DNA of 64,000 nucleotides from NCBI RefSeq assembly GCF_029338255.1, contig NZ_CP119787.1:3115631-3179630 (forward strand). The letters run 5' to 3'. The notes under the pieces were generated by a model. The model did no database searches. It had not been told where the DNA came from and was given only the letters and a program-made list of their open reading frames with translations. Both the position numbers and the translations under genes were made by a program. Position 1 is the stretch's first letter; each line of letters opens with the position of its first letter. Below, piece by piece: positions 9,471 through 47,165 of the stretch. The stretch comes from Haloarcula halobia (GTDB lineage: Archaea; Halobacteriota; Halobacteria; Halobacteriales; Haloarculaceae).

Positions 9471-9812
9471 ATGACCGAGGCCGACGACACCGTCGACCCA
9501 AGCGAGTTCGGCGAACAGGACGCCCCGCCCGTCGAGGCAAAGCCCTACAAGATCATCTTCGAGGCCAACAAGTGCTTCGGCGCCGGGAAGTGCGCCGAGG
9601 TCTCGCGGAACTGGAACCTCGACCTCGACACCGGCATCGCAACCCCGCGGGCCTACTTCATCGGCGAGGAGGACCTGGACCACAACGTCGCGGCCGCAGA
9701 GGCCTGCCCCGCGAAGAAGGGACGTGGCATCATCCACGTCGTCGACCGCCGAACGAACGAGGAGGTCGCGCCCGACCCCCACGGCGACGGCACCCTCTCG
9801 GTCGACTGGTAA
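9471..9812 (+). CDS. 3Fe-4S-type ferredoxin
   Basis: This is a 113-residue acidic protein. Its KIIFEANKCFGAGKCAEV segment has Cys-x5-Cys, and a third cysteine sits in AACP-type context (EACPAKKGRGIIHVV). Three cluster cysteines with that spacing and no fourth fit a single [3Fe-4S] ferredoxin of the type paired with P450 or other oxidoreductases. The N-terminal 25 residues are an acidic haloarchaeal extension. The redox partner is unknown, and the hydrogenase operon begins 2.7 kb downstream with an unrelated promoter. The gene lies 40 bases before the tRNA gene. Confidence 0.8.
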   Translation: MTEADDTVDPSEFGEQDAPPVEAKPYKIIFEANKCFGAGKCAEVSRNWNLDLDTGIATPRAYFIGEEDLDHNVAAAEACPAKKGRGIIHVVDRRTNEEVAPDPHGDGTLSVDW

Positions 9813-9852: not shown

Positions 9853-9937
9853 GCGAGGGTCGCCTAGGCTGGCCAATGGCGGTGGGCTTAAGACCCGCTC
9901 CCGTAGGGGTCCATGGGTTCGAATCCCATCCCTCGCA
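9853..9937 (+). tRNA. tRNA-Leu (anticodon UAA)
   Basis: The acceptor arms GCGAGGG (9853-9859) and CCCTCGC (9930-9936) pair perfectly with A as discriminator. The anticodon loop CTTAAGA between stems GTGGG and CCCGC gives anticodon UAA. A long variable arm (TCCCGTAGGGGT) is present, as expected for leucine tRNA, and the T-loop GGTTCGAATCC is canonical. The 3' CCA is not encoded. Its 3' end is duplicated twice downstream. Confidence 0.95.
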
Positions 9938-9970
9938 TTCTCTGCCTCGAACGGATGTGAGAGGCGTGAA
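9916..9970 (+). repeat. tRNA 3'-end repeat, copy 1 (native)
   Basis: The last 22 bases of the tRNA (T-loop to acceptor) plus about 33 downstream bases containing GCCTC-n12-GAGGC form a unit that recurs at 10035 and 10146. In this copy the acceptor ends CCCTCGCA, so the tRNA is intact. Confidence 0.8.
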
Positions 9971-10034
9971 AATCTAACAGATGGCGATTCGAAGCCTATC
10001 AGTCGCGCGCAGCGATGCGAGCACGTCTGATTTC

Positions 10035-10089
10035 GGTTCGAATCCCATCCCTCGGGTTCTCTGCCTCGAACGGATGTGAGAGGCGTGAA
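10035..10089 (+). repeat. tRNA 3'-end repeat, copy 2 (att-like)
   Basis: This is nearly identical to the native unit over 55 bases. It keeps GGTTCGAATCCCATCCCTCG and the GCCTC/GAGGC inverted repeat but has GG instead of CA after CCCTCG. It has no matching 5' tRNA half. It lies 119 bases after copy 1, as an attachment-site duplication would. Confidence 0.7.
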
Positions 10090-10145
10090 TGTGCACCGGA
10101 TGGATTCGAACTACGGCAGGCCGAGCGAAGCGAGATCTGGCATCG

Positions 10146-10184
10146 GGTTCGAATCCCATCCCTCGGGTTCTCTGCCTCGAACGG
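10146..10184 (+). repeat. tRNA 3'-end repeat, copy 3 (att-like)
   Basis: A third, shorter copy that matches the unit as far as TGCCTCGAACGG and then diverges. It carries the same GG substitution as copy 2 and lies 111 bases after it. The 10185-10270 stretch that follows has no gene and no clear element. Confidence 0.65.
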
Positions 10185-10270
10185 GGCCGCGGAGTGAAGC
10201 CAGTAGCCCGTTGCGAGCCAGGGATGAGAACCTGAACAAATAATCAAACCCCCCGTCAGAGTAGCGAACG

Positions 10271-10730: not shown

Positions 10731-11243
10731 ATGACCGAGGTACCAGCGGACGTCGGGGCCGCCTTCGACCGGCACGAGGCGTTCGTCCCGGCGGGGACGG
10801 GCTACGCCGTCGAGACGACGAGTTTCACGGGTCACGTCACCGCGAGCGAGGGCGAGCAGTGGCGGACGGACATCGAGGTGACGGTCCGGGCGCCGTCGCT
10901 CCAGGCCGCGACCAGCGACGAGGTCGGCGAGGCGGTCCGCGAGGGCTGGTTCGAGACGTTCGAGCGCCGACTCGAGGACGCCCCGAAGGCGACCCGGGCG
11001 TCGGTCGACGTCGACGAGTACGTCGTCGAGCGCGACGGCGACGAGGTGGTGGTCACCTACCGGTTCAGTCTCGGGAACGCGAATCAGGCCGCCGACGTCG
11101 CGAAGGCCTTCGCCGAGTACGTCCAGGGGACCTACGTCGAGGGAATCATCCCGGGCTACGACTACGTGGGGACCGTCGCGGACCTCATGGACACGGCGAG
11201 CACGGGCGGGAGCGAGGGTCGTCGCGGCGGGACGCCGCTGTGA
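10731..11243 (+). CDS. DUF5813-type haloarchaeal protein
   Basis: A 170-residue soluble acidic protein. It shows the order I associate with DUF5813: an N-terminal helix (VGAAFDRHEAF), ETTSFTGHVTASEGEQWRTDI, the central GWFETFERRLEDAPKATR segment and the late YVQGTYVEGIIPGYDYVG stretch. No catalytic motif or membrane segment is visible, and the function is unknown. The start is the ATG at 10731. It is an independent gene 45 bases after the kinase remnant. Confidence 0.7.
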   Translation: MTEVPADVGAAFDRHEAFVPAGTGYAVETTSFTGHVTASEGEQWRTDIEVTVRAPSLQAATSDEVGEAVREGWFETFERRLEDAPKATRASVDVDEYVVERDGDEVVVTYRFSLGNANQAADVAKAFAEYVQGTYVEGIIPGYDYVGTVADLMDTASTGGSEGRRGGTPL

Positions 11244-11355
11244 GTGGCGCGTGCGCTCTCGAGTGCAGGTGAGCCCGCAGGCAGTGGTGATTGCCGTCCC
11301 GAAGCCACGACGGTCGACGGGCGTCGTGTGGACCGAGCACCCATCGATACCGACA

Positions 11356-11397
11356 GGGTCCTCGCCCACAGGGGCCGGCAGTGACGGGCGAGGACCT
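11356..11397 (+). other. strong inverted repeat / RNA hairpin in a geneless 434-base gap
   Basis: GGGTCCTCGCCC (11356-11367) pairs with GGGCGAGGACCT (11386-11397): eleven Watson-Crick pairs plus one G-U around an 18-base loop. The surrounding gap, 11244-11677, holds no credible gene: the open frames there are rich in Arg and Ser with no domain. It may be the end structure of the upstream transcript, or a structured leader or small RNA. Confidence 0.35.
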
Positions 11398-11677
11398 CCG
11401 AGTGGTCGATTCCCACGCACGGTTCGGGAGCCGTCGTCGCGACTCCCCGGTCGTAAAGCGAGCCCAGCTCGGCGCCGGTGTCGGGTCGCCCTCGGTCGGA
11501 CCGGGACGCTCGCCCGGGGCTGGTGCCAGCTGGTCACGAGACCCCGTTGCTGTGCCGACGACGGGTGGCGGGCGGGCGACGGCGTGGGGTCTCCGCGGGG
11601 TCCGAATCGTGGCGACCCGGGTACCTCGACCGGCAAAAGCGGTTTTTCCGAGCAGTGCTATTGGTCGGTACGAGCGC

Positions 11678-12346
11678 ATGCCCGGTGTCCGCGCGGAACT
11701 CGCCTTCGACGACCCGACCGGTTGTCCAGTCGCCGACCTCACCGACGGGCAGGGGGGCACGGCCCGGTCCGTGACCTGGAGTGACGGCGACAGGACCGTC
11801 ACCGAGCAGTTCGAGTACGACGGGGACGTCGACGCCTCGAGCGGGAGCGAGACAGCGCCCGAGGGCGACGTGAACCGGGTGTTCGACTACGACGACGCAG
11901 CAGTCTACGAGCTGGAGCGAGAGAGCGAGGACTGCGTCTGTCAGACCATCGCCGAGTTCGACTGTCCGCTGTCGGACGTCGATGTCGCCGACGGCACGCT
12001 CTACGTGAGCCTCCACCTGCGGGACGCCACCGAACTCAGGGCGTTGCTCGAGCGACTGCGGGGGGCGTACGACGACGTCCGGGTCCGCTATCTGGTGCAG
12101 TCCGGCGACGGTGACAGCAGCGGCGACGTCGTCCCCGTCGACCGGGACCGACTCACCGACCGTCAGCGCGAGGCGGTCGCCACGGCCTACCGGATGGGCT
12201 ACTTCGATTACCCCAGGCAGTCGAACGCGTCCGAGGTGGCCGAGGCACTCGACATCGCCCCGTCGACGTTCACTGAACACCTCACGGCGGCCCAGTCAGA
12301 GCTGCTCCGCGCGGTGCTCGACGACGACAGCCCGGGGCCGCGGTAA
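11678..12346 (+). CDS. Bat-type helix-turn-helix transcription regulator
   Basis: The 222-residue protein has an N-terminal region of two beta-rich halves without obvious PAS or GAF signatures (residues 1-150, with CVCQTIAEFDC in the middle). A C-terminal bacterio-opsin-activator HTH_10 domain follows: LTDRQREAVATAYRMGYFDYP, given in part as LTDRQREAVATAY, then ASEVAEALDIAPSTFTEHL. These regulators respond to oxygen, light or redox in haloarchaea. It is the last gene before the hydrogenase operon, on the same strand, 209 bases from the small-subunit ATG, so it is a good candidate for that operon's regulator. It could also act on the rhodopsin genes further along. Confidence 0.85.
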   Translation: MPGVRAELAFDDPTGCPVADLTDGQGGTARSVTWSDGDRTVTEQFEYDGDVDASSGSETAPEGDVNRVFDYDDAAVYELERESEDCVCQTIAEFDCPLSDVDVADGTLYVSLHLRDATELRALLERLRGAYDDVRVRYLVQSGDGDSSGDVVPVDRDRLTDRQREAVATAYRMGYFDYPRQSNASEVAEALDIAPSTFTEHLTAAQSELLRAVLDDDSPGPR

Positions 12347-12443
12347 ACCGCGTCTCTCGACGGCACCGGACCACGCCGACCCCGACCGGCACGGGCGTGG
12401 CCCGCCGGCGACCGATGGCTGACCGCCGGTGGTCCACCTGGAG

Positions 12444-12469
12444 TTATAAAGACCCCTGGAACCGGGGTC
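12444..12469 (+). promoter_or_regulatory. hydrogenase operon promoter with palindromic operator
   Basis: A clear TATA box, ttataaa (12444-12450), is followed directly by the inverted repeat GACCCC-n7-GGGGTC (12451-12469), between the TATA box and the expected transcription start near 12473. A protein bound there would block or gate the start. The implied leader before the ATG at 12556 is about 80 bases. The TATA position also shows that the longer open frame beginning near 12397 is not the true gene start. Confidence 0.5.
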
Positions 12470-12555
12470 GACAATCCATCCAGCTTCAGCCGTCAGATAC
12501 GTATACAGCGGCGGGCGTGCCCCGACGGGCGCGAACCCGCCCGGAACAGCCCACA

Positions 12556-13836
12556 ATGGCGACCAGAACCCCGACCACGGACGATGCAGGCCCGCGAGTC
12601 GACCGGCGACCGGACTTCCTCGAGCTCTGTCACCACAACGACGGAGGCGACGTCGTCGAACAGTACGCCGCCGACATCCGGGCGTCGCTCTCGACGGTGA
12701 CGACCGGTGCGATCGACGTCGCCTGGGTGCAGGGACAGAGCTGTACCGGGTGCACCATGTCGATGCTGCAAAACGAGTTCCCCGCCATCGAGGGGGTGCT
12801 CAGCGAGTTCCGCGAGACGGTCAGTTTCCACCCCACGCTGATGGACGAGGCCGGCGAGACGGCGATGGGTTCACTCGGGGCCGGTCCGGACGTCCTCGTG
12901 GTCGAGGGCGCGGTTCCCGTCGAGATACCGCGGGCGGCCACGCTCGGCCGCGACGAGCGAGGGAACCCGAAACCGCTCGTGGACTGGGTGATAGAGCTCG
13001 GTGAGGCCGCGGACCTCGTCATCGCCGTCGGGAGCTGTGCCGCCTACGGCGGGCTGCCCGCGGCCGGTCGACACGACAGCGACGATGTCGGCGCGGACCC
13101 GACCGGCGCGCGCGGCCTCCAGTTCGACGGCAGGGACCCCGGTGGCGTCTTCGGTCCGGCCTTCCGGACCGGGCGGGACCTGCCCGTCGTCAACGTCCCC
13201 GGCTGTCCGGCCCACCCCGAACACGTCCTACTCACCCTCGCGACCGTGTTGCACGGCCACGACCCGGTCCTCGATGAGTTCAACCGGCCGCTCCCGATAT
13301 TCGGCCCGCTCGTCCACGACGACTGCTCCCTGCGCGAGGAGTACGAGAGCGGCAACTTCGCCGACCATCCCGGCGACGACGGCTGCCTCTACGAGGCAGG
13401 CTGTGCCGGCGTCTACGCGTACTGTGACGACTCCAAGCGGCTGCGAAACGGCGGGACGACCATCTGCCGTGACGTCGGCGCACCCTGCATCGGATGCGTC
13501 GAGCCGGCGTTCTGGGACCGGTTCACCCCGTTCTACGAACCGGGGCTCGACCGGGGAGACGCAGGCCGTGACGGCCACTCGAAGCGTGACTACCGCGACG
13601 CCGCCGCCGACCCCGACGAGACCACCGGCGTCCGCGAGGCTGTCGCGGACGCGAGTCCGGTGACGAACCCCGTCGGGGCCCTCATCGGAGCGGTGGTGAG
13701 TCTCCTCCTGGTACCGCTGTTGCCCGGTGCCGCGGCCGCCGCCGCCCTCGTTCGCTGGCTCGACATCTGTCAGCGGCGTCCCGAGGGCCCGGTCGCGCTG
13801 ACCGGGCCCGACGACAGAGCAACGCGCGATAGCTGA
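12556..13836 (+). CDS. [NiFe] hydrogenase small subunit (group 1-like)
   Basis: The 426-residue protein carries the electron-transfer clusters. The proximal motif is SCTGCTMS (Cys63, Cys66), followed by DVLVVEGAVP, VGSCAAYGG and NVPGCPAHPE. The distal and medial cluster region has HDDC, GCLYEAGC, then YCDDS, TIC and APCIGCVEPAFWD, the order found in group 1 uptake enzymes. The proximal motif is CTGC, not the cysteine-rich form of O2-tolerant membrane enzymes. RRPDFLEL (residues 17-24) resembles a Tat motif, but no hydrophobic stretch follows, so export is doubtful. A C-terminal helix (NPVGALIGAVVSLLLVPLLP) probably anchors it to the membrane. It is the first gene of the operon; the large subunit starts six bases after its stop. 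Confidence 0.93.
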   Translation: MATRTPTTDDAGPRVDRRPDFLELCHHNDGGDVVEQYAADIRASLSTVTTGAIDVAWVQGQSCTGCTMSMLQNEFPAIEGVLSEFRETVSFHPTLMDEAGETAMGSLGAGPDVLVVEGAVPVEIPRAATLGRDERGNPKPLVDWVIELGEAADLVIAVGSCAAYGGLPAAGRHDSDDVGADPTGARGLQFDGRDPGGVFGPAFRTGRDLPVVNVPGCPAHPEHVLLTLATVLHGHDPVLDEFNRPLPIFGPLVHDDCSLREEYESGNFADHPGDDGCLYEAGCAGVYAYCDDSKRLRNGGTTICRDVGAPCIGCVEPAFWDRFTPFYEPGLDRGDAGRDGHSKRDYRDAAADPDETTGVREAVADASPVTNPVGALIGAVVSLLLVPLLPGAAAAAALVRWLDICQRRPEGPVALTGPDDRATRDS

Positions 13837-13842
13837 CAGACA

Positions 13843-15387
13843 ATGCCCGAGATAGAGATCGACCCCACGACCCGCATCGAGGGCCACCACTCGACGACGC
13901 TGCACGTCGAGGACGGCCACGTCGTTCGAGCAGAGAGCGAGATGAACATGTTCCGCGGCGTCGAGTCCATCACCCTCGGTCGGCAGCCGTCGGACGTCCC
14001 GCAGGTGACCCAGATGGTCTGTGGCGTCTGTTTCACGTGCCACCGACAGGCCTCCATCCTGGCCATGGAAGACGCCGCCGGGCGGGCCGGCGTGTTCGAC
14101 GGCGTGCCGCCCAACGGCCGGCTGCTCCGGGACATCATGGAGGGGATGTTCCTCCTGTGGAACCACGCCGTCCACCTGTTCGTCCTCGCCGGACCGGACT
14201 ACTCGAACGCGGTCGCGGACACCGGCTTCGACCGGCTCGACCCGGTCGACGGAGCGGGGTACCAGGACGCGCTGGCCCACCAGCGTGACCTCCTCCAGGC
14301 CTTCACGGAGTTCGGTGGGCGGGCGCCGCACCCGCTCACGTACGCACCCGGCGGCGTGACCGCCGACCCCGACCCGGAGACGCTTGCGGAGATTCGCGAG
14401 ACCGTCGCGGCCATAGACGAGTGGCTCGGGCCGACCGACGCGGTTCCGGAGCTGGTCGAGCGGGCGCGCGACGACGAACGCGGCGAGCCGACCGACGGCG
14501 GTGCCGGCGGCTACGACCTCTGTTCGATACTCGTCGCCGCCGCCGAGGCCGGCGCCGCCGACTTCGGCGTCGGGCCGGGCCGCTTCTACGCCAACGGGAT
14601 GTTCTTCGGGCCGGGCGGGAGCGCCGACGACCCGGCCGAGTCGCTGGTGTTCCCACGCGGCATCTACGAGGACGGCAACCTCCGACGGCCGACGCGGACC
14701 GACCTCGTCGAGGGCATCACCGAGGACGTCGGCCACGCGTGGTACACGGACGCGTCGGGCGGTCGGCCCGCGGAGGCGCCCGCACCTGACCCCGACCCCG
14801 AGAAGGCGGGTGCCTACTCGTGGGGAAAGGCCCCGAAGTACCGCGGGCGGACGATGGAGACCGGACCGCTGGCGCGACTCGTCGCCGCCGAGCGCGACCC
14901 GGCCGACCTCCGGGCGACGCTCGGCAACGGCGCGGCCGCCAGTAGCACGTTCAACCGGCTGGCCGCTCGCGTCCAAGAGACGCTGCTGGTCCGCGACCGC
15001 CTCGTCGAGTGGCTGGACGCCGTCGACCCCGACGCCCCGACGAAGGCCGAGTGGACCGACGACTTCAGCGGCGCCGGCGTCGGCTTCTGGGGCGCCTCGC
15101 GCGGGGCGCTTTCCCACTGGGTCCAGGTCGACAGCGGTACGGTCAACCAGTACCAGATCGTCACGCCGACGACCTGGAACCTCGGCCCGCGTGACGACGA
15201 CGGTGTTCCCGGCGTCTTCGAGTCGGCCGTCGAGGGGATGGCGGTCCCCGACGTCTCGGACCCGACCGACGTGATGCGTACCGTCCGGTCGTTCGACCCC
15301 TGTCTGGGGTGTGCGGTCCACGTCGAGAGCCCCGAGGGGCGCTTCGAGACCGAAGTCGAACCACACGCGCCCGGAGGGGGCCGGTGA
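13843..15387 (+). CDS. [NiFe] hydrogenase large (catalytic) subunit
   Basis: The 514-residue catalytic subunit begins PEIEIDPTTRIEGHHS, containing the conserved TRIEGH. The L1 motif is MVCGVCFTCH (Cys60, Cys63, His67) and L2 is DPCLGCAVH (Cys487, Cys490, His493), giving the four Ni-Fe cysteine ligands. Twenty-one residues follow His493, the cleavable tail removed by a maturation protease after metal insertion. In L1 the usual Arg-Ile before the first cysteine is Met-Val and there is an extra cysteine (Cys66). The region of about residues 170-240 carries acidic inserts. It lies six bases after the small subunit, and its stop overlaps the protease start (GTGA). Confidence 0.93.
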   Translation: MPEIEIDPTTRIEGHHSTTLHVEDGHVVRAESEMNMFRGVESITLGRQPSDVPQVTQMVCGVCFTCHRQASILAMEDAAGRAGVFDGVPPNGRLLRDIMEGMFLLWNHAVHLFVLAGPDYSNAVADTGFDRLDPVDGAGYQDALAHQRDLLQAFTEFGGRAPHPLTYAPGGVTADPDPETLAEIRETVAAIDEWLGPTDAVPELVERARDDERGEPTDGGAGGYDLCSILVAAAEAGAADFGVGPGRFYANGMFFGPGGSADDPAESLVFPRGIYEDGNLRRPTRTDLVEGITEDVGHAWYTDASGGRPAEAPAPDPDPEKAGAYSWGKAPKYRGRTMETGPLARLVAAERDPADLRATLGNGAAASSTFNRLAARVQETLLVRDRLVEWLDAVDPDAPTKAEWTDDFSGAGVGFWGASRGALSHWVQVDSGTVNQYQIVTPTTWNLGPRDDDGVPGVFESAVEGMAVPDVSDPTDVMRTVRSFDPCLGCAVHVESPEGRFETEVEPHAPGGGR

Positions 15388-16142
15388 CCGGCGCCCACGA
15401 CGCCGTGGCCATCGTCGGGGTCGGCAACCCGACGATGGGCGACGATGGCCTGGGGCGCGCGGTGCTCGACCGCCTCGTCGCCGACGCCGATGTGGTGGGG
15501 GCCGGAGGCGGACAGGACGGGCCCGTTCGAGCGGCCTTCGCCGGGACGACCGGGTTCTTCGCGCTCGAGGCGATGGACGGCGTCGACCGGGCAGTCGTCG
15601 TCGACGCCGTCGACGCGGACGGGCCACCCGGGACGGTCCACCGGGTCCGACTGGACCGGCCCCGCGCTGGGTCCGGGGCGGCCGGCGGCGACCCGGCGCT
15701 CACCGGCGGCGTCCCGGAGGTGACGCTGCACGACATCACCTTCCGCGACGCGCTCCGAACCTGTCGGTCGGCGTACGACCTCCCCGACTGGGTGGTCCTC
15801 GTCGGGGTGGTGCCGGCGGTGGTCGAGGGCGGGATCGGACTCAGCGACCCGGTGACGGCAGCGGTACCGACGGCGGCGGCCGCCGTCCGGGCCGAACTGG
15901 ACCGGCGGCCGCGACACGGGACCGACGGAGGTGACCCGAGCATGGACACGACCTGGTACTGTCACGACTGCGACAGACGGATCGACTCGGCGGCGGTCGA
16001 CGAACACGAGGCCCGAGGCCACAGCGTCAGGGGTCGGCTTCGGCCCGACCGCTTGCTCGCACAGGACCCCTGGGAGACGGACGGCACGCTGGACGAGGAC
16101 GGCGAATCGGGCCCGGACGACGCGTCGGAGGTGACCGAGTGA
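15384..16142 (+). CDS. hydrogenase maturation protease (HyaD/HycI family) continuous with a zinc-finger-like tail
   Basis: The start is the GTG at 15384, inside the large-subunit stop, with GGAGGGG just upstream. Residues 1-180 are the endopeptidase that trims the large-subunit tail: VGVGNPTMGDDGLGRAV with the conserved nickel-binding Asp, then VVVDAVDADGPPGTV and VVLVGVVP. In place of a stop the frame runs on into 66 residues with C-x2-C-x11-H-x4-H spacing (YCHDCDRRIDSAAVDEHEARGH) and an acidic end. Normal HyaD/HycI proteins are 150-200 residues, so this is either a real fusion or two genes without a separating stop. The TGA overlaps the hypC ATG by one base. Confidence 0.85.
   Translation: MTGAHDAVAIVGVGNPTMGDDGLGRAVLDRLVADADVVGAGGGQDGPVRAAFAGTTGFFALEAMDGVDRAVVVDAVDADGPPGTVHRVRLDRPRAGSGAAGGDPALTGGVPEVTLHDITFRDALRTCRSAYDLPDWVVLVGVVPAVVEGGIGLSDPVTAAVPTAAAAVRAELDRRPRHGTDGGDPSMDTTWYCHDCDRRIDSAAVDEHEARGHSVRGRLRPDRLLAQDPWETDGTLDEDGESGPDDASEVTE
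15927..15934 (+). promoter_or_regulatory. ribosome binding site inside the protease frame
   Basis: GGAGGTGA lies seven bases before an in-frame ATG at 15942. The same octamer with the same spacing precedes hypC (16127-16134, ATG 16142). It complements the haloarchaeal 16S rRNA end fully, so internal initiation is plausible. Confidence 0.55.
15942..16142 (+). CDS. possible separate small zinc-finger protein made by internal initiation
   Basis: Starting at the ATG at 15942, the same frame as the protease would give a 66-residue acidic protein. It has a Cys2His2-like segment (YCHDCD, then DEHEARGHSVRG), RLRPDRLLAQDPWE and a Glu/Asp-rich end. A perfect ribosome binding site precedes it. Small zinc-finger proteins of this look may be free-standing elsewhere, in which case the protease has lost its stop. 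The role is unknown; metal handling during hydrogenase assembly is a guess from context. Confidence 0.4.
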   Translation: MDTTWYCHDCDRRIDSAAVDEHEARGHSVRGRLRPDRLLAQDPWETDGTLDEDGESGPDDASEVTE

Positions 16143-16387
16143 TGTGTCTCGGCATCCCCGGCGAGGTGCTCGAGATCGACGGCGATGAGGCCCGCGCGGC
16201 GTTTCGCGGCGCCGAAAAGTGGGTCCGAATCGACGTCGTCGGCGACGACCTCTCCGTCGGCGACTACGTGCTCAACCACGCCGGCTTCGCGATTCGGAAG
16301 ATTCCCGAAGAGCAGGTCGAACGGACGGTCGAACTGTACGAACAGGCCGCCGCGGGCGACACCGGACGGGGTGAGGTCAGTGACTGA
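16142..16387 (+). CDS. hypC: hydrogenase maturation factor HypC
   Basis: This is an 81-residue chaperone beginning MCLGIPGEVLEI. Cys2 becomes N-terminal after Met removal and holds the Fe(CN)2CO unit on its way from HypD to the large subunit. The start is the ATG at 16142, not the GTG one codon earlier, because Cys2 must follow the initiator and GGAGGTGA is seven bases upstream. The ATG overlaps the preceding TGA by one base, and the gene overlaps hypD by eight bases. Confidence 0.95.
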   Translation: MCLGIPGEVLEIDGDEARAAFRGAEKWVRIDVVGDDLSVGDYVLNHAGFAIRKIPEEQVERTVELYEQAAAGDTGRGEVSD

Positions 16388-17471
16388 AGCGCTGGAGTTT
16401 CGCGACCCCGAGCGAGCGACGGAACTGACGGACCGTCTCCGGGCGCTCGTCGACGGCGTCGACCGGCACCTCCGCGTGATGCACGTCTGTGGGTCACACG
16501 AGGAGGCCATCGCGGAGTTCGGGCTCCGGAGCGTCCTGCCGGACGGCCTGACGGTGGCGATGGGACCGGGCTGTCCGGTCTGTGTCACCGACCTGCCGGA
16601 GGTCGACGAGGCGGTGGCGCTGGCCGAGACGGGCCACACCGTGGCCACCTACGGCGACATGGTCCGCGTGCCCGGCAGCGACGGGAGCCTCGCCGACGCC
16701 CGGTCGGCCGGGGCGGACGTCAGGACGGTCTACAGCGCCGCGGAAGCGGTCGACGTCGCGACGGAGACCGACGGCGAGGTGGTGTTCTTCGCGACCGGGT
16801 TCGAGACCACCGCCGCGCCGACAGCGACCGTGCTCCGGGACGGGCCGCCGGAGAACTTCTCGGTGCTGTCGGCCCACAAGTACGTCCCGCCGGCGATGGA
16901 CGTCGTGGCCGCTCACCCCGACACGCAGGTCGACGGGTTCCTCGCCGCCGGGCACGCCGCGACGATAACCGGCGTGGACGTCTTCGAGAGCGTCGTCGAG
17001 AACCACGGCCTGCCGGTCGTCGTCGGGGGGTTCGAACCGCTCGACATCCTCGCGGGGTTGGTCATCCTGGTCGAGGAAATCAGCGCGGGCGAGGCCTCGG
17101 TGACCAACGCGTACCCCCGGTGTGTCGACGACGCCGGCAACCGGGCTGCCCGCGAGGCGCTGTGGGAGGTCTTCGAGCGGGTCCCCGGCAAGTGGCGCGG
17201 CGTCGCGGAGGTGCCCGACGCAACGCTCGAGCTCCGGGAGTCGTACGCGGAGTACGACGCCCGCCGGCAGTTCGACATCGACCGCCCGACCGTCGACGAC
17301 CGGACGACCGAGTGCATCTGTGGCGACATCATGGGCGGTCGCGCCAGCCCGACCGACTGCGACCTGTTCGGGACGGCGTGTACGCCGACGGACCCCGTCG
17401 GCGCCTGCATGGTGAGCGACGAGGGGCCCTGCCACATCCAGCACGCCTACGGCGGGAGGCGACAGCCGTGA
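16380..17471 (+). CDS. hypD: hydrogenase maturation factor HypD
   Basis: The 363-residue iron-sulfur protein assembles the Fe(CN)2CO ligand set with HypC. Visible motifs are VMHVCGSHEEAI, MGPGCPVCVT, FATGFETTAAPTA, SAHKYVPPAM and the C-terminal cysteine set CICGDIMGGRASPTDCDLFG. The start is the GTG at 16380, reading VTEALEFRDPERA, inside the end of hypC. Its TGA overlaps the hypE GTG by three bases (GTGA). Length and motifs are normal for the family. Confidence 0.96.
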   Translation: MTEALEFRDPERATELTDRLRALVDGVDRHLRVMHVCGSHEEAIAEFGLRSVLPDGLTVAMGPGCPVCVTDLPEVDEAVALAETGHTVATYGDMVRVPGSDGSLADARSAGADVRTVYSAAEAVDVATETDGEVVFFATGFETTAAPTATVLRDGPPENFSVLSAHKYVPPAMDVVAAHPDTQVDGFLAAGHAATITGVDVFESVVENHGLPVVVGGFEPLDILAGLVILVEEISAGEASVTNAYPRCVDDAGNRAAREALWEVFERVPGKWRGVAEVPDATLELRESYAEYDARRQFDIDRPTVDDRTTECICGDIMGGRASPTDCDLFGTACTPTDPVGACMVSDEGPCHIQHAYGGRRQP

Positions 17472-18589
17472 CCAGGACCGAGGCCGAGCCCGACGCCGTG
17501 GAAGAAACCGGCGAGTCGGCGGGCGACGCAACCGTCACCGCCGCCCACGGGGCGGGCACCGAGCGCACCCGCGACCTGCTCGACGCCGTCGTGACCGACC
17601 GCTTTGGCGACCCGGCGACGGCCGACGTCGGGCTGGGGGCGCTCGACGACGGCGCGGTCGTCCCTGACAGTGCGGTCAGAGACGTGGACCCACCGGCGGC
17701 CGACGGCGACCGTTCCCCCGAGGGCTCGACCGTCGTCACGACCGACGCCCACGTCGTACACCCCCGGGAGTTTCCCGGCGGCGACCTCGGTCGCCTCGCG
17801 GTCTGTGGGACCGTCAACGACCTCGCGGCGATGGGCGCGACCGCCCCGCTCGCGCTGTCGAGCGCCCTCGTCGTCGAGGCCGGCACGCCGGTCGCGGCCG
17901 TCGACCGGCTGACGTCGTCGATGGCGGCGGCCTGCGAGGAGGCGGGCTGTCAGCTCCGCACCGGCGACACGAAGGTGATGGGAAGCGGGGACGTCGACGG
18001 CATCGTCGTCACGACCACCGGCGTCGGTCGGATCGAACGCGGCGCCGAACTGGCCGCCACCGGCGTCTCGCCCGGCGACGCGTTGCTCGTGACCGGCCCG
18101 GTCGGCGACCACGGCGTCGCCCTGCTGGCGGCCCGCGAGGGCTTCGAGTTCGCCTCTCCGCTCAGGAGCGACGTGCGACCCGTCAACGACCTGGTCGCCG
18201 CCGCCCGGGAAGCCGGCCGGGTGACCGCGGCGACGGACCCGACCCGAGGGGGGGTGGCGAACGCCGTCAACGAACTCGCCGCCGCCAGCGAGGTCGGACT
18301 GGTCCTCGACGAGCAGTCGATACCCGTCGCCGACGCGACCCGCGGCGCGGCCGAGGTGCTCGGCCTCGACCCGCTGACCGTCGCCTGCGAGGGGCGGATG
18401 GTGCTCGCAGTCGACGCCGCCGACGCCGACGCCGTCCGTGACCGGCTCAGAGAACTGCCCGGCGGTGAGAGGGCGGCGGTCGTCGGCCGTGCGGTCGACG
18501 ACCACCCCGGCGACGTCGTCCTCGACACCGGCTTCGGGGAGCGCTACCTCGACGTCCCGACCGGCGAACGGGTCCCCCGAATCTGTTGA
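17468..18589 (+). CDS. hypE: hydrogenase maturation factor HypE
   Basis: A 373-residue PurM/AIR-synthase-fold enzyme. It dehydrates the thiocarboxamide that HypF places on its C-terminal cysteine to thiocyanate, the source of the active-site CN ligands. The protein indeed ends PRIC. Other marks are VTAAHGAGTERTRDLL, LGALDDGAVV, VTTDAHVVHPREFPGGDLG and TDPTRGGVANAVNELA. The N-terminus has an acidic extension of about 25 residues. The start is the GTG at 17468, overlapping the hypD stop. Confidence 0.96.
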   Translation: MTRTEAEPDAVEETGESAGDATVTAAHGAGTERTRDLLDAVVTDRFGDPATADVGLGALDDGAVVPDSAVRDVDPPAADGDRSPEGSTVVTTDAHVVHPREFPGGDLGRLAVCGTVNDLAAMGATAPLALSSALVVEAGTPVAAVDRLTSSMAAACEEAGCQLRTGDTKVMGSGDVDGIVVTTTGVGRIERGAELAATGVSPGDALLVTGPVGDHGVALLAAREGFEFASPLRSDVRPVNDLVAAAREAGRVTAATDPTRGGVANAVNELAAASEVGLVLDEQSIPVADATRGAAEVLGLDPLTVACEGRMVLAVDAADADAVRDRLRELPGGERAAVVGRAVDDHPGDVVLDTGFGERYLDVPTGERVPRIC

Positions 18590-18592
18590 ACC

Positions 18593-18994
18593 ATGCACGA
18601 ACTCGCCATCGCGGACCGGCTGCTCGACCGCGCCGTATCGGCCGCTCGCGACGCCGGCGCGGAGCGGGTCGACGGACTGACAGTCGAACTCGGTACCGCG
18701 ACGCACCTCGTCCCCGAACAGGTGGCGTTCTGCCTCGACGCGGTCGCCGAGGACACCCCCGCGGAGGGTGCCACAGTCACCTTCGAGCGCGTGTCGGCCC
18801 GTGGCGAGTGTTCGTGCGGGTGGCACGGCGAGCTGGAGACGCTCGCCGAGACGGTCGCCGGGGTCCCGGACAGGCGCTGTCCGGACTGCGGAGCCGAGGT
18901 CGAACTCACCGCCGGGCGCGAGTGCCGGCTGAAGACCGTCGAGATTCCCGAGGCACCGACCACTCGAAAGACCGACCAGACGGACCAGACGTGA
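18593..18994 (+). CDS. hypA: hydrogenase nickel insertion protein HypA
   Basis: The 133-residue protein starts MHELAIADRLLD. His2 with the amino terminus binds nickel. The zinc site is formed by CSCGW (residues about 73-77) and RRCPDCG (about 97-103), two cysteine pairs as in other HypA proteins. The C-terminal 20 residues are a Thr/Asp-rich tail. It follows hypE by three bases and precedes hypB by 13, and it works with HypB to deliver nickel to the large subunit. Confidence 0.95.
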   Translation: MHELAIADRLLDRAVSAARDAGAERVDGLTVELGTATHLVPEQVAFCLDAVAEDTPAEGATVTFERVSARGECSCGWHGELETLAETVAGVPDRRCPDCGAEVELTAGRECRLKTVEIPEAPTTRKTDQTDQT

Positions 18995-19007
18995 GCGAAC
19001 GTCCACG

Positions 19008-19847
19008 ATGACCTACCACGCAACCCACGACGTCGACCGACTCCTCGCATCGCTCGCTCGAACGATAACGCGCCTGCAACCCCGCCAGCCGCTCCCTCCA
19101 GACCGCCGCCGTGGGCCACTCCGGACGCACCGCTTCGGGCACGAGAGCGACCCCGAGGCAGGTGGTAGCGGTGACACCGCCGAGGCCGACGTCCTCGCTG
19201 CGGTCCGCGAGACGGCCGGCGACGTCCACGAGCGACTCGGGCACGACCACGACGTCTTCGCCGTCGAGCTGCTCGGCGCGACCGGCGCCGGGAAGACGGC
19301 CCTGCTCGAGTCGTTGCTGGGGGACGAGGGGCCGACGCCGTTCGCCGGCGAACGCGTCGGGGTCGTCACCGGCGACGTGGCCGGCACCGACGACGCCGAC
19401 CGCCTGCGGGCCCTCGACGTCCCCGTGGTGAACGTGACGACCGGGCGGGACTGTCACCTCGACCCGGAGCGCGTCGACAGCGCACTGGACGACTTCGACC
19501 TCGACCGTCTCGACGTGCTGGTCGTCGAGAACGTCGGCAACATGGTCTGCCCGGCCGACTTCCCGCTCGGGACCGACGTCCGCGCCGTCGTCGTCAGCCC
19601 CACCGAGGGGGACGACGTCGTCCGGAAACATCCGCTGTTGTTCCAGGTCTGTGACGTCGCGGTCCTCAACAAGGGAGACGTCGCCGCCGCCGTCGGGGCC
19701 GACGTACAGCGGATGGCCGACGACGTCGACCACGTCGCTCCCGAGACCCCGGTCGTCCGGACCAGCGCCGAGACGGGCGCGGGCATCGACGAACTGTCGG
19801 CGTGGCTCGTCGACCGACGCCGCGAGCGAGTCCACTCCCATGGCTGA
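19008..19847 (+). CDS. hypB: hydrogenase nickel insertion GTPase HypB
   Basis: This is a 279-residue SIMIBI GTPase with the P-loop ELLGATGAGKTALLES, GVVTGDVAGTDDADR, the GRDCHLDPERV metal-site cysteine and histidine, VVENVGNMVCPADFPLG and the base-recognition motif LNKGD (commonly NKxD). The N-terminal 60 residues are a basic, histidine-poor extension rather than a nickel-storing His-rich tract. The ATG at 19008 follows hypA closely, and the end overlaps hypF by eight bases. Confidence 0.94.
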   Translation: MTYHATHDVDRLLASLARTITRLQPRQPLPPDRRRGPLRTHRFGHESDPEAGGSGDTAEADVLAAVRETAGDVHERLGHDHDVFAVELLGATGAGKTALLESLLGDEGPTPFAGERVGVVTGDVAGTDDADRLRALDVPVVNVTTGRDCHLDPERVDSALDDFDLDRLDVLVVENVGNMVCPADFPLGTDVRAVVVSPTEGDDVVRKHPLLFQVCDVAVLNKGDVAAAVGADVQRMADDVDHVAPETPVVRTSAETGAGIDELSAWLVDRRRERVHSHG

Positions 19848-22224
19848 ACGCGCCGACCGTCGGGCGGACGCGGCCGAACCGGATCGCGACGAAGGTCCCG
19901 CGAGCGAGGGCGAGTCCGACGGCGCCCGTGACGCCGACGCCGGTCCCAGCGCCGTCGCGGTGGGGGTGACCGGGACGGTCCAGGGCGTCGGCTTTCGCCC
20001 GTTCGTCGCCCGGACGGCCGGGGAACACGGGGTGGCCGGCAGGGTGAAAAATGCCGACGACGGGGTCCGGATCGTCTTCGAGGGAGCGCCCGGAGCGGTC
20101 GAGGAAGCCGTCGAGACGGTCCGGACGGACCCACCGCCGCTCGCGACCGTCGACGACGTGACGGTCGCCGACTGTGACCCGGCCGGCCACGAGCAGTTCG
20201 AGATCGTCCCGTCGACGGCCGCCGGAGAGCGGGCGACGCTCGTCCCGCCGGACACCGGGATCTGTGCCGACTGCCGGGCGGACATCCGCGCCCCGGACTC
20301 CCGGTACCACGGTTACTGGGCGACAGCCTGCGTGAACTGTGGCCCGCGCTTTGCCATCACCGAGGGTCTGCCGTACGACCGCAAGCGGACCGCGATGAGT
20401 GACTTTCGACGCTGCCCGGACTGCCAGGCCGCCTACGAGTCCCCGACCGACAGGCGGTTCCACGCACAGACCGTCGCCTGTCCGGCGTGTGGACCGACGC
20501 TGACGCTGGTCGACGGCGACGGAACCGACCTGACTGCCGGGACGGCGGCGCTGTCACACCTCGCCGACCGCCTCGCGGAGGGCGAAGTTGCCGGACTCAA
20601 AGGCGCCGGCGGGTGCCACCTGTGCTGTCGCGCGACCGACGCCGACGCCGTCGGGTGTCTCCGCGAGCGGACCGGCCGCGACGAAAAGCCCTTCGCCGTC
20701 ATGGCCCCGTCCGTGGAACGCGTCGAGGCGTTCGCCCGGGTCGACGCTGCCGAGCGCGAGTCCCTCACCGACGCGCGTCGCCCCATCGTCGTGCTGGACC
20801 GACGGACGCCGGCCGGCGACGACGCCCGCTGGCTAGAGGCCGTCGCCCCGGGACTGCACACCGTCGGCGTGATGCTGCCCTACAGCGGCGTCCACCACCT
20901 CCTGTTCGACCGGGTGACCGACCCGCTCGTGATGACGAGCGCCAACCGCCCTGGCGAGCCGATGTGTACCACCCGGACGGAGCTGCTCGACCTGTCGGCG
21001 GTCGACTGTGTGCTCGTCCACGACCGGGACGTGACCAACCGCTGTGACGACAGCGTCGTCCGCCACGTCGACGGCGACCGGCGCTTTCTCCGGCGCTCCC
21101 GTGGCTGGGTTCCCGACCCCCTTCCCCGACCCGTCGTCCCCGACCTGGAGGTGCTGGGCGCCGGCGGTCGGTCCGACGTCACCGTGGCCCTGACCGACGG
21201 CGACCGCGTGGTGCCCAGCCAGCACGTGGGGACGGTCACCGACCCGGCGACGGCACGCTTTCACCGCCGGGCGGCCGCGCACCTTTCGACGCTGCTCGAC
21301 GTGGACCCCGACGTCGTCGCCCACGACCTGCACCCGGAGTTCCGGACGAGGGCGGTCGCTGAAACGGTCGACGCCCGGTCCGTCGGGGTGTGGCACCACC
21401 ACGCGCACGCCGCCGCGTTGCTCGCCGAACACGACCGGTCCCGGGCGGTGGTAATCGCCGCGGACGGGACCGGATACGGCCCGGACGGTGTCGTCCGCGG
21501 CGGGGAGGTACTAGACAGTCGGCTCGCCCGGAGCGACCGGGTCGGCGGCCTCTCGGAGTTCCGACTCCCCGGCGGCGAGCGGGCGGTGCGCGAGCCGGCG
21601 CGGGTCCTCGCCGATCTCCTCGACGACGAGCGCCGCGTCACGGACCTGCTCGTCGAGCACGGTATCGTCGACGACCGGACGGCCGCGGCCACCATCCACC
21701 GGCAGGCGGCTCGCAAGCTGAACAGCCCGGTGACGACCAGTGCCGGGCGGTTCCTCGACGCGACCAGCGCGCTACTTGGGCTCTGTACGGAGCGGTCGTA
21801 CCGCGGACAGCCGGCGCGCAGGCTGGAAGCGGTCGCCGCCCGCGGCGACCCGCACGACGTCGACCCACCCGTCGACCGGACCGGTGTGGCACCCACCGTC
21901 CGGGCTGACCGCGCACTCGAGCATCTCGCGGCCCTGTCGGACCGACACGCGCCCGCCGACGTCGCCGCCACCGCACAGCGGCTTCTCGCCGACGGCCTCG
22001 CGGAGATTGCCGTGGACGCCGCGCAGCGCCGAGGGCTGCAAGCGGTGGGGTTCACCGGTGGCGTCGCGTACAACCCGGCCATCTCGGCCCGCATCCGGGA
22101 GGCCGTCACCGACGCTGGGCTGGCGTTCCTGGGCCACGCGGCGGTACCGCCCGGCGACGGCGGCCTCTCGTACGGACAGGCGGTGGCGGTCAGTGCTCGC
22201 GCCGAGCGGGGGGACCTCGAATAG
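19840..22224 (+). CDS. hypF: carbamoyltransferase HypF
   Basis: A 794-residue protein with the full HypF order. The acylphosphatase domain carries VTGTVQGVGFRPFVART (about residues 43-59). Two C4 zinc fingers follow (CADC/CVNC and CPDC/CPAC, about 140-225), with ACVNCGPRFAITEGLPYDR between them. The YrdC-like domain carries LKGAGGCHLCCRATD, and the C-terminal Kae1-like domain has HHHAHAAALLAEH, AADGTGYGPDG and GFTGGVAYNPAIS. It makes carbamoyl-adenylate and loads HypE. The first 40 residues are an acidic extension. It is the last gene of the operon. Confidence 0.96.
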   Translation: MAERADRRADAAEPDRDEGPASEGESDGARDADAGPSAVAVGVTGTVQGVGFRPFVARTAGEHGVAGRVKNADDGVRIVFEGAPGAVEEAVETVRTDPPPLATVDDVTVADCDPAGHEQFEIVPSTAAGERATLVPPDTGICADCRADIRAPDSRYHGYWATACVNCGPRFAITEGLPYDRKRTAMSDFRRCPDCQAAYESPTDRRFHAQTVACPACGPTLTLVDGDGTDLTAGTAALSHLADRLAEGEVAGLKGAGGCHLCCRATDADAVGCLRERTGRDEKPFAVMAPSVERVEAFARVDAAERESLTDARRPIVVLDRRTPAGDDARWLEAVAPGLHTVGVMLPYSGVHHLLFDRVTDPLVMTSANRPGEPMCTTRTELLDLSAVDCVLVHDRDVTNRCDDSVVRHVDGDRRFLRRSRGWVPDPLPRPVVPDLEVLGAGGRSDVTVALTDGDRVVPSQHVGTVTDPATARFHRRAAAHLSTLLDVDPDVVAHDLHPEFRTRAVAETVDARSVGVWHHHAHAAALLAEHDRSRAVVIAADGTGYGPDGVVRGGEVLDSRLARSDRVGGLSEFRLPGGERAVREPARVLADLLDDERRVTDLLVEHGIVDDRTAAATIHRQAARKLNSPVTTSAGRFLDATSALLGLCTERSYRGQPARRLEAVAARGDPHDVDPPVDRTGVAPTVRADRALEHLAALSDRHAPADVAATAQRLLADGLAEIAVDAAQRRGLQAVGFTGGVAYNPAISARIREAVTDAGLAFLGHAAVPPGDGGLSYGQAVAVSARAERGDLE

Positions 22225-22274
22225 TCGACGGACCACACCGGGGGCGACGAGGCCACCGACGACAGGACCAGACT

Positions 22275-22360
22275 CGGGGGACGGCCCCCGCTCCGTAGCA
22301 CGGCTTCCGACGACGACCGGCCAGCGGGAGTGACAACCGGACCATCGAGAGACGGTCCGG
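22275..22360 (+). terminator. paired hairpins after the hydrogenase operon
   Basis: Two hairpins lie in the 242-base gap between convergent genes. CGGGGG/CCCCCG has a four-base loop (22275-22290), and CCGGACC/GGTCCGG has a ten-base loop (22337-22360). They are placed where the hypF transcript should end. Archaeal termination usually relies on T tracts, which are absent, so they may instead stabilise the transcript end. Confidence 0.35.
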
Positions 22361-22466
22361 CGAGCGAAGCGAGCCAGTGGCCCGCAGTGCGAGGAACCGG
22401 GCGCCAGGGCTCTAGATATCTGCGAACGGGGGTCCCGGCGGACTCCCCGACGGGAACACGTAGTCG

Positions 22467-22697
22467 CTAGTCCATCGCGATGTAGGTCTGCGTGTTCTCG
22501 ACGCCCTGGATGTCCTGGATGTGGGTGGCAGCCACGTCCTTGACCGCGGCGGGCGTGTCGACCGACACCTTCGCGATGAGGTCGACGTCGCCGGCGACGA
22601 TGTGGGCCTCGCCGACCCCGTCGATGGCTTCGATTTCGTCCCGCAGGCGGTCCGCGTCTCCAGTGTGGGCTTTGACCATGACGTACGCAGTGACCAT
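22467..22697 (-). CDS. stand-alone RAM (Lrp/AsnC ligand-binding) domain protein
   Basis: The 76-residue protein is the C-terminal effector domain of Lrp/AsnC regulators without a DNA-binding part: VTAYVMVKAHTGDADRL, DGVGEAHIVAGDVDLIAKV and IQGVENTQTYIAMD. The start is the ATG at 22697, with GGAGGTG six bases upstream inside the end of trkA. Such stand-alone RAM proteins form rings that bind amino acids. Co-transcription with trkA suggests it senses a ligand relevant to potassium uptake. A paralogue lies on the other side of trkA at 23500. Confidence 0.85.
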   Translation of the reverse strand: MVTAYVMVKAHTGDADRLRDEIEAIDGVGEAHIVAGDVDLIAKVSVDTPAAVKDVAATHIQDIQGVENTQTYIAMD

Positions 22698-30154: not shown

Positions 30155-30867
30155 TGGACGCCGTCACCGCCGCCTACTGGATGACCGGCGCGGGGTTCCT
30201 GGTGGGCGTCGCCATCGTCTGGTGGCTGTACGCCTCGCTCGAGGGGGCCGAGGAGCGGTCGGTCCTCGCGGCACTCGCCATCATCCCCGGGTTCGCCGGC
30301 GTCTCGTACGCCCTGATGGCGCTGGGGGTCGGCACAGTGTCGGTCGGCGGGACCACCCTGGTCGGCTTCCGGTACGTCGACTGGCTCGTGACGACGCCAC
30401 TGCTGGTCGGGTTCGTCGGCTACGTCGCCGGCGCGTCCCGTCGGGCCATCCTCGGCGTGATGGCCGCCGATGCGCTGATGATACTGGCAGGCGTCGGCGC
30501 GACGGCGACCGAGGGGAGGCTGAAGTGGGCGCTGTTTGCCGTCTCCGCGGCGTTCCACCTCTCGCTGTTTGCCTACCTCTACCTGGTCTTCCCGAGGGCC
30601 GTCCCGGACGACCCGGAGCGCCTGGGGCTGTTCAGCCTCCTGAAGAACCACATCGGCCTGCTGTGGCTGGCGTACCCCCTGGTGTGGTTGGCCGGGCCGG
30701 CCGGCCTCGGAATCGGTACCTTCGTCGGGACCAGCCTCACCTACGCGTTCCTCGACCTGCTGGCGAAGGTCCCCTACGTCTACTTCTTCTACGCCCGGCG
30801 ACAGGTCTTCATCGAGGGCGTCGTCGACAAGACGACCGGACGGACGGGGCCCACGACGGCGGACTGA
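30154..30867 (+). CDS. sopI: sensory rhodopsin I
   Basis: A 237-residue seven-helix retinal protein. The key residues fall at the same numbers as in Halobacterium SRI: Asp76 in RYVDWLVTTP (counter-ion), His166 in LLKNHIGLLW (photocycle proton transfer) and Lys205 in FLDLLAKVPYVYFFYARR (retinal Schiff base). Asp96 of proton pumps is not present at the matching site (LLVGFVGY instead). With HtrI it gives attractant responses to orange light and repellent responses to near-UV. It is translated from the ATGA overlap with htrI. Confidence 0.95.
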   Translation: MDAVTAAYWMTGAGFLVGVAIVWWLYASLEGAEERSVLAALAIIPGFAGVSYALMALGVGTVSVGGTTLVGFRYVDWLVTTPLLVGFVGYVAGASRRAILGVMAADALMILAGVGATATEGRLKWALFAVSAAFHLSLFAYLYLVFPRAVPDDPERLGLFSLLKNHIGLLWLAYPLVWLAGPAGLGIGTFVGTSLTYAFLDLLAKVPYVYFFYARRQVFIEGVVDKTTGRTGPTTAD

Positions 30868-46412: not shown

Positions 46413-47165
46413 ATGCCTGCACCAGGTGGCGAATCGATATGGCTATGGCTCGGTACTGCCGGGATGTTCCTCGGCATGTTGTACTTCATCGGTCGCGGTT
46501 GGGGAGAAACCGATGAACGAAGACAGAAGTTCTACATCGCAACGATACTGATAACGGCGATCGCCTTCGTGAATTACCTCGCGATGGCGCTCGGGTTCGG
46601 ACTGACGATAATCGAGTTGGGCGGAGAGGAGGTGCCCATCTACTGGGCCCGGTACACGGACTGGTTGTTCACCACCCCGCTGTTGCTCTACGACCTCGGG
46701 TTGCTCGCGGGTGCCGATCGCAACACCATCGCCTCACTGGTGAGCCTCGACGTCCTGATGATCGGCACCGGTGTCGTCGCGACGCTCAGCGCGGGGAGCG
46801 GCGTCCTCTCGGCCGGCGCGGAGCGACTCGTCTGGTGGGGTATCAGCACGGCGTTCCTGCTCGTGCTGCTGTACTTCCTGTTCAGTTCGCTCTCCGGCCG
46901 GGTCGCCGACTTGCCGAGCGATACCCAAAGCACGTTCCGCACGTTGCGGAACCTCGTGCTGGTCGTCTGGCTCATCTACCCGGTCTGGTGGCTCGTCGGA
47001 ACGGAGGGTCTCGGCCTGGTGACGCTGGGTATCGAGACCGCCGGCTTCATGGTCATCGACCTCACCGCGAAGGTCGGCTTCGGGTTCATCCTCCTGCGCA
47101 GTCACAGCGTCCTCGACGGCGCTGCGCAGGCGACTGCGAGCGGCGCGGCCCCGGCCGACGACTGA
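46413..47165 (+). CDS. bop: bacteriorhodopsin-type light-driven proton pump (cruxrhodopsin-like)
   Basis: A 250-residue seven-helix retinal protein. Helix C reads [19 protein letters not shown], with both pump carboxylates (Asp83 and Asp94, equal to Asp85 and Asp96 of bacteriorhodopsin). The proton-release glutamates are present (Glu198 and Glu208), and the retinal lysine is Lys220 in [11 protein letters not shown]. It therefore should pump protons outward, and it closely resembles Haloarcula cruxrhodopsins from memory. It sits between atpB and atpD on the same strand, with its own upstream region of 94 bases. Confidence 0.95.

Follow-up and report, generated by a model that had tools for sequence, protein, structure and literature searches.

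A [NiFe] hydrogenase operon of Haloarcula halobia belonging to a HydABC branch without Tat signal and HydC

The window analyzed here is a stretch of 64,000 nucleotides from the genome of Haloarcula halobia (contig NZ_CP119787.1, positions 3,115,631 to 3,179,630). Positions 12556-22224 of the window hold a complete and intact [NiFe] hydrogenase operon, consisting of genes for the small and large subunits, a maturation protease, and HypC, D, E, A, B and F (Table 1). A first-pass annotation had described the operon as complete, joined mostly by overlaps of 1-8 bases and intact in its motifs, and these points were borne out: all nine ORFs lie where it had placed them, with family matches far above chance. 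In Pfam, the small subunit matches PF01058 and PF14720, the large subunit PF00374 (1.6e-84) and the protease PF01750, and the maturation proteins match HypC (5.6e-23), HypD (8e-128), AIRS/HypE, HypA (4.7e-23), cobW/HypB and five HypF domains. Curated NCBIfam cut-offs are passed for HypC, D, E, B and F and for the protease superfamily; HypA reaches 70 of the 88 bits required by TIGR00100, and the equivalogs for the structural subunits are likewise not passed. The large subunit retains both sets of NiFe ligands, L1 as CGVCFTCH (CGVCxxCH) and L2 as DPCLGCAVH, and continues for 21 residues beyond the last ligand His as a C-terminal peptide, with the protease gene next. HypC has its Cys2 and HypE its C-terminal Cys, whereas the first zinc pair of HypA is C-x-C and not C-x2-C, a form common to all of the haloarchaeal HypAs compared. 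Five of the eight junctions overlap (large subunit/protease by 4 bases, protease/HypC by 1, or 4 with a GTG start, C/D by 8, D/E by 4 and B/F by 8), and the remaining gaps measure 6 (small/large), 3 (E/A) and 13 (A/B) bases. The first ORF opens at ATG 12556, position 12444 falling at about the TATA-like box.

Table 1. Features of the hydrogenase locus (window coordinates).
Feature	Coordinates	Strand	Evidence or remarks
Inserted block, ~11.1 kb (regulator + operon)	11242..22357	.	blastn of L133-L136 vs window; absent from four congeners
DmsR_N + HTH_10 regulator, bacterio-opsin-activator family	11678..12346	+	Pfam DmsR_N 129.5 bits, HTH_10 76.8 bits
TATA-like element GAGTTATAAAGACCCC, probable operon promoter	12440..12458	+	sequence inspection only
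Small subunit, HydA-like, 426 aa	12556..13836	+	degenerate Tat signal DRRPDFLELCHHNDGGDVVEQY; ligands of three Fe-S clusters all intact; hydrophobic helix at C-terminus (~372-406)
Large subunit, HydB-like, 514 aa	13843..15387	+	NiFe ligands at L1 and L2; cleavable C-terminal peptide
Hydrogenase maturation protease	15384..16142	+	in-frame C-terminal zinc-ribbon-like tail (WYCHDCDRRID)
hypC	16142..16387	+	TIGR00074 67 bits, cut-off 48
hypD	16380..17471	+	TIGR00075 415 bits
hypE	17468..18589	+	TIGR02124 334 bits; C-terminal PRIC
hypA	18593..18994	+	PF01155 4.7e-23
hypB	19008..19847	+	TIGR00073 211.8 bits
hypF	19840..22224	+	TIGR00143 722 bits

The cysteines of the regulator upstream of the operon, read from the sequence, follow the pattern C-x(n)-C-x-C-x7-C, which we take to resemble that of NarO. 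DmsR and NarO have been described as activators of anaerobic respiration (PMC11218638). Regulator and operon occupy one inserted block with a GC content of 72.3%, against 67.9% for the remaining window. In four congeners (L133-L136), blastn places window position 11241 directly before window positions 22358-22469, separated by only ~20-165 bases, and the nearest relative, whose flank is 93% identical, is missing ~11.1 kb at this site. Integrase-mediated insertion was considered and rejected, as neither a target duplication nor an integrase was seen at the block ends. Elsewhere in the window, positions 9853-10214 contain a tRNA-Leu (TAA) whose 3' end, together with ~30 bases, recurs twice more behind it (repeats at 9916, 10035 and 10146); the copies might be traces of repeated integration events.

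Comparison of gene order across some 40 loci distinguished two types of operon. In type A, the order is small subunit, large subunit, an interval of ~1 kb, protease and hypCDEABF, and in Natrarchaeobaculum sulfurireducens AArc1 this interval holds HydC, a 1-kb gene that carries a cytochrome b/b6-domain annotation and matches PF01292. Type B operons have no HydC gene and comprise those of the window, L086, L087/L004, L088/L005, L089/L006, L078 and L092; three further type B small-large pairs (L090, L093 and L095) have no adjoining maturation genes and come from genomes that also carry type A. The two types occur together in some genomes (G069, G178 and G258). A HydC query found no match in seven B-only genomes (G000, G367, G168, G117, G299, G124 and G391, the last 78% complete), and the same query matches AArc1 (taken to be G182), G346 and G069. 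PF01292, a profile that recognizes HydC, likewise has no match in the window genome, and with both searches returning nothing, a HydC encoded elsewhere in this genome was ruled out. Synteny around type B loci shows conservation of only the Hyp genes, plus a DmsR-like regulator in three loci (apart from the window itself, L004 and L086 are the only type B loci with an adjoining homologue of the window regulator), and neither a quinone site nor a named electron partner was found for the window enzyme. The protease carries its zinc-ribbon-like segment (window 15942-16139) as an in-frame fusion in the window, L087, L088 and L078; the tail is absent from L092 and from the type A sequences recovered, which do not represent every locus. 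AArc1 has a separate small hypothetical ORF at the equivalent place, between protease and HypC.

A textbook Tat signal, for example TRRNFLKLVGTAAAGSVITEY, opens the small subunits of type A. The equivalent columns read RRPDFLELCHHNDGGDVVEQY in the window and PDFLELVREREAGAVVDER, PDFLDIAARSEPGTVVETH and YDFLSLAVDREPGDVVSEF in other type B proteins, and the signal is lost in 10 of 10 type B small subunits: few of them keep an RR pair, and the segment that aligns with the former hydrophobic core (PDFL...L) is still there but carries charges. Hydropathy of the h-region, taken as the 15 residues after the motif, ranges from -0.99 (the window protein) to -0.05 in all ten type B proteins and from 0.31 to 0.93 in type A with no overlap, and charged or His residues number 4-8 per 15 in type B versus 0-3 in type A. 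A molybdoenzyme encoded in the same genome (L116) has an intact Tat signal with its hydrophobic core kept (hydropathy 0.85). A missed upstream start was also rejected, since the in-frame stretch above ATG 12556 contains no signal. Re-siting of the enzyme would thereby be legible in the sequence as a fossil Tat signal. At the other end of the protein, type B small subunits have a hydrophobic run of 28-31 residues with a central P-x-x-P and, beyond it, a tail of 17-52 residues; this anchor is absent in L092. In the AlphaFold model, which is weak as a whole (mean pLDDT 63.6), the anchor forms one continuous helix at 372-406 (pLDDT ~73-86), and a hairpin, an idea raised by the central P-x-x-P, is not claimed. 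Positive charges are slightly more common after the helix than before it, which mildly favors an inside C-terminus, although charges do not settle topology. Without export through Tat, the simplest topology would be that of a tail-anchored protein with its Fe-S domain inside.

In a tree of large subunits, the window sequence falls within a haloarchaeal HydAB clade (34 rows, 100/100), inside which type B is monophyletic (100/98) with a type A sequence, L067, as its sister (95/89). A second tree was built on the core of the small subunit, leaving out the Tat segment and anchor columns and rooting on two Tat-positive sequences drawn from a different family within the phylum; here too type B is one clade (100/100) within type A (98/96). 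Because type B forms a single clade in both trees and is nested within a Tat-positive, HydC-positive family, the losses are derived and shared, and loss of the Tat signal and HydC was a single shared event. Type B, comprising 10 loci, is a new variant branch within the published HydABC family; in the open-access literature, outside of which most subscription papers fall, we found no haloarchaeal hydrogenase described as Tat-less or HydC-less.

Hydrogenases are uncommon in the class, as the first-pass annotation had held: PF00374 occurs in 41 of 391 haloarchaeal genomes and 20 of 86 genera. Full-length relatives of the large subunit occur in 19 of 146 genomes of Haloarculaceae, a patchy rather than routine distribution, and within the genus only in the window genome and G367. 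The large subunit is 79% identical to that of Halorientalis regularis TNN28 and 73% identical to those of Halovenus carboxidivorans WSH3 and a Natronomonas MAG. The operon of G367 has another chromosomal location and branches apart from that of the window within the type B clade, so that two independent acquisitions in the genus appear likelier than many losses.

The same annotation correctly reported rhodopsins in the window (two PF01036 genes, 30163-30786 and 46431-47105; two more rhodopsin genes lie elsewhere in the genome), but the contrast it drew between a hydrogenase and an aerobic phototroph is not supported. AArc1, a facultative anaerobe, produces rhodopsin under aerobic conditions and turns to H2 only in their absence, oxidizing it with sulfur or DMSO (PMC6176080). 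The window genome itself encodes L116, a Tat-exported molybdoenzyme of the type II DMSO-reductase family (TIGR03479, 1318 bits; narG-like, below the narG cut-off), and the host is therefore probably a facultative anaerobe; together with a formate-dehydrogenase-like protein also encoded there, this enzyme makes anaerobic respiration plausible. The suggestion of H2 as an extra electron source stays plausible as well, although the respiratory wiring of relatives cannot be assumed for an enzyme whose HydC and Tat signal are missing. Those two losses, and the placement of the regulator within the same inserted block, go beyond what had been annotated.

We infer from the above where the enzyme sits, in which direction it runs, what accepts its electrons and how it responds to oxygen. 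The best explanation, and one we regard as reasonably probable, is a probably functional hydrogenase, derived from HydABC (group 1a), that has switched from the outer face of the membrane to the inner one. In the type B ancestor, the small subunit would have lost its Tat signal, the operon its HydC gene, and a weak C-terminal anchor would have become a long hydrophobic tail anchor (L092 being without it). Assembly of the NiFe site by HypCDEABF and the protease would take place in the cytoplasm, and the finished heterodimer would stay on that side, tethered to the membrane. Anaerobic H2 use in the parent family, the anaerobic enzymes of this genome and the DmsR/NarO-type regulator favor H2 oxidation at the inner face under low oxygen, with the adjacent regulator as the putative switch and with H2 evolution from ferredoxin as the main rival. 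The distal cluster, close to the membrane surface, may be the exit for electrons, with menaquinone or a soluble ferredoxin as acceptor. The broader proposal is more tentative, and we place it somewhat short of an even chance: that a tethered, cytoplasm-facing lineage arose from an exported, cytochrome-b-coupled group 1a enzyme by joint loss of Tat signal and cytochrome, that regulator and operon spread between genera as a cassette, and that electrons pass directly to quinone or ferredoxin with no dedicated partner. Depending on its membrane side and wiring, a hydrogenase turns H2 into a proton gradient, into reducing power or into neither.

Other readings must be weighed against this one. A cytoplasmic valve, reoxidizing reduced ferredoxin through proton reduction during fermentation or anoxia, would suit the predicted cytoplasmic location, the lack of a quinone-reactive subunit and the low-oxygen type of regulator. 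It is nevertheless unlikely: most members have kept a membrane anchor, the parent family is of the uptake type, and the operon has no dedicated ferredoxin gene, the ferredoxin-like ORF at 9471-9812 lying outside the inserted block and without a Pfam match. Less probable still is an ordinary outward-facing respiratory uptake enzyme, as in AArc1, that is exported by some other means and coupled to an unlinked quinone-reactive partner. Its family, its Hyp set and the position of its C-terminal membrane helix are all those of HydABC, and the charges after the helix slightly favor an inside C-terminus, but the Tat signal is gone from every type B protein and HydC from every B-only genome searched. 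A further argument against it is that folded Fe-S proteins are not known to be exported by any route other than Tat.

In favor of an H2 sensor that resembles HupUV/HoxBC (group 2b) and signals through the neighboring regulator are the missing Tat signal, the missing cytochrome b and the adjoining regulator gene. Sensor hydrogenases are not known to have a large-subunit C-terminal peptide or a dedicated protease; the window enzyme has kept both, its large subunit is clearly separated from HoxC in the tree, and its operon has no histidine kinase or PAS partner, which together make a sensor very improbable. The least credible reading is a decaying remnant in which loss of Tat signal and HydC marks the onset of pseudogenization. 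Two functional parts are indeed lost relative to the ancestor and the distribution is patchy, but the ORFs are all intact in several genera, every ligand is conserved, and the loss is one old, shared event rather than many recent ones. In comparison with Halorientalis, each operon gene differs more at the third codon position than at the first and second (~1.7-3.6x); these codon patterns led us to reject a pseudogene and indicate purifying selection on the operon, and the hydrogenase is probably functional. Under the favored reading of a re-sited, membrane-tethered enzyme, a haloarchaeal [NiFe] hydrogenase gene alone does not imply respiratory, outward-facing H2 uptake.

The survey also recovered hydrogenases of other kinds. 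Six loci (L080-L085, from G297, G118, G264, G290, G220 and G281) hold a second, unrelated haloarchaeal hydrogenase that groups with HofG of Cupriavidus (group 1h) at 100/100, with a small subunit lacking a Tat signal and the protease gene upstream; these enzymes are possibly high-affinity H2 scavengers. In two species of one genus (L097:8680-9672 and L099:8260-9306), a Tat-positive small subunit has its C-terminal half, the domain of the medial and distal clusters, replaced by repeat-rich sequence; the large subunit is intact and the HydC query has no match in the genome. A very divergent operon from another haloarchaeal family (L066 in G129) encodes a large subunit 34% identical to that of the window, and no Tat signal was found. 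More distant PF00374 proteins of ~440-580 aa, in G069, G178, G258, G089, G318 and others of the family, are perhaps group 3 hydrogenases.

Among characterized enzymes, the closest parallel is HydABC, published in AArc1 and in Halodesulfurarchaeum formicicum HTSR1 ([NiFe] group 1a / group 1; PMC6176080, PMC5437934); the group 1a label used here is that of this parent family, taken from PMC6176080. The window enzyme has the same subunit families and ligand motifs, a large subunit 59% identical to that of AArc1, and, linked to the subunit genes, a protease gene and hypCDEABF arranged as in AArc1. Unlike AArc1, in which HydA has an intact Tat signal and HydC follows the large subunit, the window branch is without both, and it further differs in its anchor and in the in-frame zinc-ribbon tail of its protease. 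Assignment to the O2-tolerant group 1d was rejected, as SCTGCT and GSCAAYGG lack the two extra cysteines of the proximal 4Fe-3S cluster, and so was assignment to the regulatory group 2b, by the 21-residue C-terminal peptide and the protease gene. Actinobacterial-type group 1h enzymes, such as HofG/HofK of Cupriavidus necator, are group 1 hydrogenases that are not known to be exported by Tat; the window enzyme does not group with HofG and belongs to a separate clade. The best PDB match of the small subunit in both sequence and fold is Huc of Mycobacterium smegmatis (group 2a, 7utd), which has no Tat signal and faces the cytoplasm in association with the membrane. By phylogeny Huc is probably not the nearest family; the large-subunit tree, which contained no Huc sequence, places HoxC (2b) and a Runella sequence outside the HydAB clade. 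There is no stalk gene near the window operon, and all proximal-cluster cysteines are kept in the window (CTGC), compared with CSGN in Huc. Exported HydABC and the derived, apparently unexported type B enzyme constitute a natural before-and-after pair built around the same active site.
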